From Desulfovibrio sp. (lineage in GTDB: Bacteria > Desulfobacterota > Desulfovibrionia > Desulfovibrionales > Desulfovibrionaceae): a DNA stretch of 32,877 bases. Shown here one piece after another: positions 5,647 to 8,705 of the stretch. The DNA lies in NCBI GenBank assembly GCA_014804965.1, contig JAAUYU010000023.1, forward strand, positions 34,196 to 67,072, given 5' to 3'. The notes below the pieces were generated by a model. It worked only from the letters and a program-made list of their open reading frames with translations. It was not told the origin of the DNA and searched no databases. Position 1 is the first letter of the stretch. The number at the start of each line of letters is the position of its first letter. Position numbers and translations under genes: made by a program.

Positions 5647-7293
5647 ATGCCGACGTTCATCACCAATCTCGTTGACAATCTCAAGGGCCTCTGGGCCCGC
5701 CTGAACATGATCCAGCGCATCGCCGTCGCGGGCGGCGCCGTGGCCCTGGTGGCCTGCGCCATCGGCCTCTCGCTCTGGGCCGGGCGGGTGGAGTACAAGG
5801 TGCTCTATTCCAACCTCGGCCCCGAGGACGCGAATGCCGTGGTCAAGGCGCTGCAGGCCGACAAGACGCCCTACCAGCTCGCCGACAACGGCACCACCAT
5901 TCTCGTGCCGCAGGACGTGGTCTATGACCAGCGCATCAAGATCGCCGGTGAAGGCGGTCTCGTGGGCCAGGGCATCGGCTTTGAGATCTTCGACAAGGTC
6001 AAGGTCGGCCAGACGGATTTCGTGCAGAAAATCAACTACACCCGCGCTCTTCAGGGCGAGCTTTCGCGCACCATCAGCGAGTTCCCCAGCGTGGAGAGCG
6101 CGCGCGTGCACCTTGTCATCCCCAAGCGCAGCCTCTTTGTGGAGGAGCGGCAGGACCCGTCCGCCTCGGTGGTGCTCAAGCTCAACAAGCCCAGCGTAAA
6201 GCCGGACCAGAAAGAGATCCAGGCCATCCTCAACATGGTGGTCATGGCGGTGGAAGGCCTTGACAAGAACCATGTCTCCATCACCGACAACGGCGGCAAG
6301 GTGCTCTACGAGCCCGAAGAGGACACGCTCGCGGGCATCAGCACCACCCAGATGGAGCACCGCCTTTCCGTGCAGCGCAACCTTGAGCGCCGCATCGAGG
6401 AACTCCTCCAGCCCATCTTCGGCCCCGGCCGCGTCATCGCCAAGGTCAACGCGGACATGGACTTCAGCCAGAAGACCATCCGCCGCGAGATCTACGACCC
6501 GGAAAAAACCGTGGTCCGCAGCGAGCAGCGCAGCGAGGAGAGCCAGCAGGGGCAGGCCAACCTCGAGGCGGGCGCGCCCGACGCCAACTTCCGCGGCGAC
6601 GGCATCACGGGCTCCGTCTCCAACCAGAACGGCACCCGCGAGACCCGCACCACCAACTACGAAATCAACAAGGAAGAGCACCAGATCATCGCCAATGTGG
6701 GAGATTTGCGCCGCCTGACGGTTGCGGTTATCATTGATGGGTCGTATGAAAAGGCGGAGGGCGCGTGGAACTTCGTGCCCCGCAAGCCTGAGGAACTGGA
6801 CCGGGTGCGCCAGCTCGTGTCCAACGCGGTGGGCCTGAACACCGGCCGCGGCGACTCTCTGGAAGTGAGCTCGGCCCCGTTCAACGATTCCGAGCCGCCC
6901 CACGAGCCCAACTTCGCCGAGGTGCTGGCCGACTACGCCGAGCGGCTGGGCAAGCCCCTGCTCAACGCGCTCCTGGCCTTCCTCTTCCTCATGCTGGTGG
7001 TGCGCCCCGTGGTGCTCGCCCTCATCCGGCCCAAGGTCGAGGCGGGCGAGATGGTCGAAGGCCTTGAGGGCCTGCCCTCCGCCGAGGAGCAGCTCGCGCT
7101 CTACGAAGCCCTCGAGGAAGCCGCCAAGGCCGACGAGGAAGAGCCGGAAGCCATCGACGAGGAAGAAGAGGAGCTTATCTTCAAGGACATCGAAGCTCTC
7201 AAGGCGCACATCTTCACCCTCTCCGACAACCACATGGAGCAGGTGGTGAGCCTGGTGCGCGGCTGGATGCAGAAAGATGAAGCAAGAGCCTAA
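5647..7293 (+). CDS. fliF: Flagellar MS-ring protein FliF
   Basis: FliF forms the MS-ring in the inner membrane, on which rotor and export gate are built. This copy has about 548 residues, a normal length. It shows an N-terminal membrane helix (residues about 22-42), YscJ/FliF ring-building domains with FliF segments such as VLYSNLGPEDA and ARVHLVIPKRSLF, and a second membrane helix (about 440-462). An acidic stretch follows, then the cytoplasmic FliG-binding helix HMEQVVSLVRGWM at the end. The start at 5647 is preferred because GAGGGGA sits six bases upstream; a start at 5632 would add only five residues. The gene heads the operon behind a sigma-54 promoter. Its last 17 bases overlap a small ORF that repeats its C-terminal motif. 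Confidence 0.96.
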   Translation: MPTFITNLVDNLKGLWARLNMIQRIAVAGGAVALVACAIGLSLWAGRVEYKVLYSNLGPEDANAVVKALQADKTPYQLADNGTTILVPQDVVYDQRIKIAGEGGLVGQGIGFEIFDKVKVGQTDFVQKINYTRALQGELSRTISEFPSVESARVHLVIPKRSLFVEERQDPSASVVLKLNKPSVKPDQKEIQAILNMVVMAVEGLDKNHVSITDNGGKVLYEPEEDTLAGISTTQMEHRLSVQRNLERRIEELLQPIFGPGRVIAKVNADMDFSQKTIRREIYDPEKTVVRSEQRSEESQQGQANLEAGAPDANFRGDGITGSVSNQNGTRETRTTNYEINKEEHQIIANVGDLRRLTVAVIIDGSYEKAEGAWNFVPRKPEELDRVRQLVSNAVGLNTGRGDSLEVSSAPFNDSEPPHEPNFAEVLADYAERLGKPLLNALLAFLFLMLVVRPVVLALIRPKVEAGEMVEGLEGLPSAEEQLALYEALEEAAKADEEEPEAIDEEEEELIFKDIEALKAHIFTLSDNHMEQVVSLVRGWMQKDEARA

Positions 7294-7486
7294 AGCAAGG
7301 GCGTTGTCTCAAGGCAAGAGCGGGAGCAGTCCCGCTCTTGCCGACATCCGGGCCATACGCCTGGCACAGAAAGCCACCAACCAGCGGGTGGAGGAGCTCA
7401 AGCTCCGCCTGTTCCGCATGACGGAGCAGCACATGGATCAGGCCGTGAGCCTGATCCGTCGCTGGCTTAAGGACCCGGAGCGCTAG
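7277..7486 (+). CDS. Small protein repeating the FliG-binding C-terminus of FliF
   Basis: This 69-residue ORF starts inside the end of fliF in the +1 frame, overlapping by 17 bases. Its C-terminal half aligns without gaps with the last helix region of FliF: LKLRLFRMTEQHMDQAVSLI against LKAHIFTLSDNHMEQVVSLV. Over 29 positions 12 are identical, and most of the rest are conservative. That region of FliF binds the N-terminal domain of FliG. The ORF has no membrane segment and no good ribosome-binding site, so it may rely on translational coupling to fliF. It could be a free FliG-binding peptide, a tail added to FliF by frameshifting, or the remnant of a partial fliF duplication. The homology is visible in the sequence; expression is not. 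Confidence 0.6.
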   Translation: MKQEPKARALSQGKSGSSPALADIRAIRLAQKATNQRVEELKLRLFRMTEQHMDQAVSLIRRWLKDPER

Positions 7487-7505
7487 ACCGCCCCCGGGAT
7501 CAATG

Positions 7506-7666
7506 ACAAACTCCGCTGCGCGGAGTTTGTGCCGTCCACGCCGCGGAGCGGCTGGACGGAAAGACACGAAAATCGCTCGATTAACGGCGCGGCAAAGCCG
7601 CGACCTTCTCGCAATTTTCGGGGCTGCTGACTTTGTCAGCAGCCAAGGGAGCGCAGGCGCTCCCTT
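7506..7666. repeat. Array of five back-to-back hairpins between the FliF-tail ORF and fliG
   Basis: Five unrelated inverted repeats follow one another almost without gaps. H1: 7506-7516/7520-7530, 11 perfect base pairs, loop TGC. H2: 7532-7559, 12 pairs with one bulge, loop GGA. H3: 7567-7576/7611-7620, one mismatch, enclosing 7588-7593/7597-7602 with loop AAA. H4: 7622-7631/7635-7644, 10 perfect pairs, loop TTT. H5: 7645-7654/7657-7666, 10 perfect pairs. None is followed by a T-run. The array fills nearly the whole gap before fliG. It may be a structured RNA that sets relative expression of fliF and fliG, a REP-like intergenic element, or a protein-binding array. Confidence 0.8.
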
Positions 7667-7709
7667 TCGCCACAGAGAAAGCGGCATCGGGAAAGGAGTC
7701 ACGAAGATC

Positions 7710-8705
7710 ATGGAACTGACCGGCCAGCAGCGCATCGCGGTCCTCCTGCTCGCCATGGGCGACAAGTTCACCGCCGACGTTTTCAAGCGCATGGAGCGCC
7801 AGGAAATCGCCGACGTCTCCAAGGCCATCGTTGAGCTCGGCCCCGTGCCGCGCGAGACCGTGGAGGAAGTGCTGCGCGACTTCCATGAATCCCTGGTGGA
7901 AGGCGTGGACATGATCTCCGGCGGCACGGATACAGCCAAGCGCCTCCTTTCCCGCAACCTGGACCCCGAAACCGCCAAGTATGTCATGGATACGCTGGCG
8001 CTGGACACCGGGCCCGCGCCCTTCCGTGACCTCGAGCAGGTGAGCCCGCGCCTGCTCTCGCAGATTTTGCGCAACGAGCATCCGCAGACGCTGGCCCTCA
8101 TCATGGGCCACCTCCACCCGGACCAGGCCGCCAATCTCCTGACGAGCCTGCCCGCGGGCGTGCGCGCCGAGGTGCTCACCCGCCTCGCCAAGCTCGAGTC
8201 CGTGCCGGAAGAAATGCTCATGGAGGTGGACAAGGTGCTCACGAGCCAGCTCATCGCCATGGGCGGCAAGGAGGGCAAGAAGGTGGGCGGCGTGCAGTCC
8301 GTGGCCGAGATCCTCAACGCCGTGGACCGCGCCACCGAGGAGGAGGTCCTCTCGGAAATCGAGGAGGAATCCGCCCAGATGGCCGAGGACATCCGCAACC
8401 TCATGTTCGTTTTCGAGGACTGCAAGAATATCGACGACAAGGGCGTGCGCGAGCTGCTCAAGGAAGTCTCCAACGAGGTGCTCACCCTGGCCCTGCGCGG
8501 CGCCAGCGAGGATTTGCGCGAAAAGTTCTTCAAGAACATGTCCGAGCGCGCGGGCAACATGATCCGCGAGGAGCTGGAATTCATGGGCCCCACCAAGATT
8601 TCGGACGTGGAGGCCGCCCAGCAGAACATCGTCAAGGTGGTGCGCCGCCTGGAGGCGGAAAACAAGGTGGTGGTCAGCCGGGGCGGCGGCGATGTGTTCG
8701 TCTAG
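7710..8705 (+). CDS. fliG: Flagellar motor switch protein FliG
   Basis: FliG links the MS-ring to the C-ring and carries the helix that meets the stator, generating torque. This 331-residue copy has the usual length. The N-terminal FliF-binding domain starts MELTGQQRIAVLLLAMG. The middle domain holds the EHPQTLALIMGHL motif (EHPQ contacts FliM). The C-terminal torque domain has the charged helix near NLMFVFEDCKNIDDKGVREL. The ATG at 7710 is chosen because AAAGGAG lies upstream and the protein start matches the family. The frame stays open back to 7503 through the hairpin array, but that extension does not look like protein. Confidence 0.97.
   Translation: MELTGQQRIAVLLLAMGDKFTADVFKRMERQEIADVSKAIVELGPVPRETVEEVLRDFHESLVEGVDMISGGTDTAKRLLSRNLDPETAKYVMDTLALDTGPAPFRDLEQVSPRLLSQILRNEHPQTLALIMGHLHPDQAANLLTSLPAGVRAEVLTRLAKLESVPEEMLMEVDKVLTSQLIAMGGKEGKKVGGVQSVAEILNAVDRATEEEVLSEIEEESAQMAEDIRNLMFVFEDCKNIDDKGVRELLKEVSNEVLTLALRGASEDLREKFFKNMSERAGNMIREELEFMGPTKISDVEAAQQNIVKVVRRLEAENKVVVSRGGGDVFV

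Follow-up and report, generated by a model that had tools for sequence, protein, structure and literature searches.

A second copy of FliF's FliG-binding tail beside fliF

How many FliG-binding tails does a flagellar motor make, and what could a tail do that is not attached to FliF? In the accessible text of one report, pairing between the C-terminal tail of the MS-ring protein FliF and FliG is said to ensure matching subunit numbers in the MS ring and the C-ring (PMC7355467). The question is raised by a 32,877-nt stretch of Desulfovibrio sp. (GCA_014804965.1, contig JAAUYU010000023.1, 34,196-67,072; G000:C23:34196-67072; genome of 2.54 Mb), here called the window, in which fliF is followed by a small open reading frame (ORF) of 69 aa that repeats the tail as a free-standing paralogue. 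This ORF is shown here to be a gene in its own right, conserved and linked to the flagellum, that encodes a tail of the FliF type; a strongly conserved loose copy of this tail suggests an undescribed flagellar assembly protein. The best explanation, on which our judgement is evenly balanced, is that a soluble copy of the FliF tail, with a start coupled to fliF, acts as an escort or cap for FliG.

The gene fliF occupies 5647..7293 on the plus strand and is recognized by Pfam YscJ_FliF and YscJ_FliF_C and by TIGR00206; its frame is open from 5632, and the start at 5647 was chosen as the likelier on the strength of an upstream GAGGGG. The first copy of the repeat is the 29-residue FliG-binding tail of FliF (7189..7275, plus strand; FliF C-terminal sequence IEALKAHIFTLSDNHMEQVVSLVRGWMQK...), which aligns to the end of FliF sequences in the PDB. 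The second, also of 29 residues, lies in the ORF at 7388..7474 on the same strand (ORF C-terminal sequence VEELKLRLFRMTEQHMDQAVSLIRRWLKD...). The two match without gaps at 12 of 29 residues. Shuffling one segment 200,000 times never gave so high a score (best 9), and a single BLASTP comparison of the ORF with FliF gives 13 of 31 identities at E 9e-9. At E<=10 the ORF matches just two places in its host genome, namely itself and the end of FliF. These comparisons confirm the proposal of the initial annotation that a separate overlapping ORF holds a second copy of the FliG-binding tail, and the core HMxQxVSLxRxW is common to both copies as it had claimed. A literature search, judged by titles and mostly without subscription papers, returned no account of such a protein.

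Conservation and purifying selection

A search of the family at the protein level, run on 288 genomes, finds the ORF in much of the genus. Canonical FliF (PF08345, E 1.7e-22 or better) is present in 58 of 79 genus genomes, and 57 of these carry a complete ORF; in the 58th (G111, locus L066) the contig ends after the first ORF codons, which read MKQEPKARALS. Eight further genus genomes have only weak PF08345 matches, in other proteins. In 20 of the 21 genomes lacking canonical FliF the ORF profile finds nothing; the remaining one, G049, holds a decayed piece. The set of 57 genus loci used below excludes this remnant (L059) and the locus cut by the contig end, and three loci (L060, L061 and L063) are counted apart. 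Throughout the 57, the ORF comes directly after fliF and lies in its +1 frame; fliG was found 27-337 nt beyond it in 56.

The initial annotation had proposed looking for the ORF in close relatives and measuring its Ka/Ks. Neither absence nor decay is seen, and the ratio of nonsynonymous to synonymous substitution (dN/dS) in the 27-codon core is 0.09. This is a pooled value for 604 pairs, drawn from 56 sequences, in which 2-25% of bases differ (one ORF sequence containing an N was left out). The other forward frames of the core give 1.55 and 3.69 and the antisense frames 1.60, 0.28 and 3.24, the 0.28 belonging to the frame whose codon positions mirror those of the sense frame. For the whole ORF the median is 0.29 (523 pairs). 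By region (553 pairs), dN/dS falls from 0.76 in the N-terminal part (7277..7387, plus strand) to 0.26 in the next 15 codons and 0.15 in the core; the tail is therefore kept and the arm preceding it is loose. The small ORF is a real gene under purifying selection, and conservation and constraint together support a separate protein in which FliF's FliG-binding core is preserved. That a non-functional duplicate has been retained by chance is extremely improbable; this idea is rejected on the constraint of the core, and it sits badly with 57 intact loci and with the absence of the ORF where canonical FliF is absent.

Within one genome the two tail copies are identical at 8-15 of 27 residues (median 10 across the 57). 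The Trp of FliF's own tail is present in all 57 genus loci, which rules out the ORF as a replacement for a lost FliF tail. In the small ORF of one genome (G066, L012), Met stands in place of the core Trp otherwise common to the ORFs.

Start codon and overlap with fliF

The ORF extends from 7277 to 7486 on the plus strand, in the +1 frame relative to fliF, and shares 17 nt with the end of that gene (7277..7293), its ATG lying within the FliF Asp-Glu codons GAT GAA. In 57 of 57 genus loci the ORF has an ATG within the end of fliF; counted back from the last base of the fliF stop, it begins at 14-32 nt, and in 41 loci at 20 nt. It always straddles two codons of FliF. T is the last base of the first codon throughout (41 GAT, 15 AAT and 1 TAT), although only 38% of Asp and 39% of Asn codons in these FliFs do so overall. 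In the aligned start column all 49 Asp or Asn codons end in T; the remaining entries are TAT, GGC and six GAA, whose ATG lies at a neighbouring codon. The other 33 of the 34 Asp/Asn columns in the FliF alignment have T-ending fractions of 0.04-0.86, a control that retains the relatedness of the sequences. Just 1 of 57 ORF starts is preceded by a Shine-Dalgarno 4-mer, compared with 55 of 57 fliG starts (56 from the genus plus L061). Since hardly any of the ORFs has its own Shine-Dalgarno sequence, translation of the ORF is taken to be coupled to that of fliF, which is the simplest reading.

The overlap had also prompted the suggestion that a +1 frameshift gives FliF a double tail. A programmed frameshift near the end of fliF, with the separate ORF as a by-product, would suit the +1 frame of the ORF and its overlap with fliF in every genus locus, as well as in L061 outside the genus (29 nt). 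The start codon argues otherwise: an ATG is found in the overlap of all 57 loci and is held against codon bias, which a frameshift would not need. Moreover, the fliF stop varies (TAA in 29 loci, TAG in 16 and TGA in 12), and in three loci from two other genera (L060, L114 and L115) the ORF begins 3-9 nt past the stop with no overlap at all. On this evidence the double tail is rejected as the principal explanation and seems highly improbable. A separate protein begun at its own ATG is the reading followed below.

Distribution and origin

A profile of 23 ORFs, run on 288 genomes of the family, finds separate small ORFs in 4 of the 44 genera (g1, g6, g32 and g40). In the other genera, among the matches listed, there is one per genome, in a frame of FliF length or one cut by a contig end. 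G275 was counted by its second match only, and G176 was read at the contig start only. A search of the order (348 genomes) gives one match each in at least 37 genomes of other families, which are taken to be FliF tails; the search of the class, also of 348 genomes, used a stricter cut-off.

A tree of 34 FliF sequences, with no root other than the midpoint, separates ORF-bearing loci (13 of the 57 from the genus and six others) from 15 loci of other genera with a support of 0.996. These 15 ORF-less loci represent 15 of the 40 other genera. The absence of the ORF from them rests also on the single profile match per genome, because the motif filter used with the tree missed two known ORFs, L012 (Met for Trp) and L056. 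One of the 15, L129, offers just 117 nt after fliF, too short for the ORF, and no fliG is seen in L129 or L132. In the other 13, fliG is near, with its first possible start -32 to +112 nt from the end of fliF, and five loci have an overlap of 8-32 nt between that start and fliF, similar to that of the ORF. In g40 (L114 and L115) the ORF lies 8-9 nt after fliF, and no fliG was found in the stretch. The FliF sequences of L116 (G014, g6) and L063 (G178, g32) are near-identical despite their different genera; one of the two may be a mis-binned contig, in which case g6 rests on L061.

The restriction of the ORF to a few genera, the split in the FliF tree and the overlapping fliG starts together make a single gain probable. 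Homology and adjacency likewise point to a copy of the FliF tail, probably gained once in the ancestor of Desulfovibrio and three related genera. Perhaps the fliF-fliG junction was duplicated in tandem and the overlapping start was taken over by the copy.

A small, basic and probably soluble protein

At E<=1 the ORF has no match in Pfam, YscJ_FliF and YscJ_FliF_C included, or in NCBIfam. Since the domains that define FliF are absent, its product is not a FliF; the C-terminal FliG-binding tail is the part that it has in common with FliF, and if the predicted fold is right it would act as that tail does. No membrane helix is found by Kyte-Doolittle hydropathy, where the maximum 19-residue mean is 0.15 (at most 0.51 in the 57 ORFs and 2.78 in FliF). 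Of 103 candidates from a search of a protein database, 102 are relatives at E<=0.01. Among those that bear names, the four Desulfovibrio proteins P0009, P0054, P0055 and P0062 are called 'flagellar M-ring protein FliF' and are members of the ORF family; the name has been taken over from FliF, as at 71-73 aa the tail is the only FliF part that they contain. The escort or cap idea supplies a hypothesis of function for this family, some of whose members carry the name FliF.

Charge is a second feature of the protein. The ORFs have a pI of 9.6-11.7, and their variable N-terminal part has a median charge of +5 in the 57 genomes, where the 25 residues of FliF ahead of its tail have a median of -10. 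The 40-residue linker of FliF (7069-7188 in the window) carries -11 to -16 in 13 genus FliFs but only -4 to -9 in the 15 ORF-less loci of other genera. The target of the basic protein could then be FliF, through the acidic linker in its cytoplasmic part, or some other factor of early assembly, and not FliG; the ORF does follow fliF even where no fliG is found next to it. This alternative appears doubtful. Among other ORF-bearing genera, the six FliFs that were read again have a linker charge of only -4 to -9, and the strongest constraint falls on the FliG-binding core, not on the basic arm.

Predicted fold and relation to FliG

FliG itself is the partner considered for the escort or cap. The ORF of a relative (L102) was modelled, as was a shorter construct tethered to FliG_N. 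The model has two helices with a hinge, broken at residue 55 (residue 32 of the shorter construct), and the small protein is predicted to co-fold with FliG_N. In structure searches the first model returned FliG matches, with weak hits only across the tail and FliG_N together; such hits are clearer with the shorter tethered model. The hits to 5TDY and 5WUJ do not test the tail, because they align to the FliG part of the models only. When the ORF profile was run against the sequences of solved structures, neither FliF nor FliG came up, and the five matches (E 0.3-0.75) are chance-like.

The closest known system is the FliF_C tail in the FliF-FliG_N domain (PDB 5TDY and 5WUJ; cryo-electron microscopy 8umd and 8vib), which has a homologous core and the helix-hinge-helix form of the ORF tail. 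By prediction, and tentatively, the ORF tail may also form with FliG_N a composite fold that would resemble FliG_M, as in that system. Unlike FliF_C, the ORF tail is separate, off the MS ring and equipped with a basic N-terminal part of its own, and the neighbouring FliF keeps its tail. FliF-FliG fusions, engineered in one study as far as its accessible text describes (PMC10128058) and present in PDB 8z4d as one chain of both, indicate that tail and FliG are workable as a unit. Such fusions are covalent and one-to-one, unlike the ORF tail, which is free and extra.

The same predicted co-fold would serve a structural subunit, a free tail in the finished C-ring that completes the N-domain of FliG molecules lacking a FliF partner, which would allow more subunits in the FliG ring than in the FliF ring. 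The accessible parts of two reports give it some room, one proposing 33 FliF to 34 FliG and a ratio that need not be 1:1 (PMC11087270), and the other giving C-ring symmetries of 32 to 36 (PMC10128058); weak, coupled translation, if it holds, would suit a protein needed in few copies. A matched 34:34 is reported elsewhere, again in the portions available (PMC11528121; PMC10128058), and a literature search judged by title found no structure of a Desulfovibrio motor. A structural subunit is, on balance, unlikely.

A possible escort in ring assembly

In the escort or cap reading, a small soluble protein would be made from its own ATG within the end of fliF, coupled to the translation of that gene. 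Produced together with FliF, it would most likely keep new or unpaired FliG folded and non-polymerising. FliF's own tail might then take FliG over, leaving the small protein as an escort or cap in the assembly of the MS ring and C-ring; this hand-over is the least certain step. Competition for FliG or capping of it, as the initial annotation envisaged, is plausible. It is a more speculative and rather unlikely extension that the free tail uncouples FliG from FliF, either by completing extra FliG and freeing the C-ring number from that of the MS ring, or by keeping a store of folded FliG from which the ring could be assembled or renewed with no need of new FliF.

A clade with an extra free tail provides a natural test of number matching between the MS ring and the C-ring. 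It also bears on how FliG avoids polymerising before it meets FliF, and on the disputed FliF:FliG ratio.

Neighbouring sequence and reduced loci

Downstream of the ORF, fliG (7710..8705, plus strand, 331 aa) has the Pfam domains FliG_N, FliG_M and FliG_C. The interval between them (7487-7709) contains three perfect hairpins and measures 223 nt, whereas the four closest relatives have 53, 58, 335 and 337 nt here. Parts of it are found again at two other places in the genome at 87% and 83% identity, and it is probably an inserted repeat element. An Rfam search of 7000-8000 gave four matches, all far under their gathering scores.

Shortened loci occur in other Desulfovibrio genomes. In G049 (L059, 2917-3954) the start of FliF, the ORF core and a shortened FliG share one 345-aa frame. 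It was considered as a natural ORF-FliG fusion, a Rosetta stone candidate, and rejected: the locus is a decayed remnant in a 1.6 Mb genome. Three genomes without canonical FliF, G052 (L117, 2280-4324), G095 (L119, 1709-3747) and G053 (L118, 1339-3408), encode a short protein of 349-352 aa that looks, on inspection by eye, like the end of FliF, has a tail ending LLRHWL and gave no Pfam hit in the one tested. It overlaps a FliG-like gene (with FliG_N, FliG_M and FliG_C in L117), and in G053 the two form one natural frame of 689 aa. By this resemblance these loci look like a reduced FliF-FliG pair outside a normal flagellum. In L123 (3555-4724, minus strand) and L124 (2877-4202, plus strand), from genomes again without canonical FliF, a single protein carries FliG_M/FliG_N-like repeats after a stretch that weakly matches the last part of the FliF C-domain. 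Weak FliF_C matches are also present in G048, G056, G065, G082, G094 and G104, all of them without canonical FliF.
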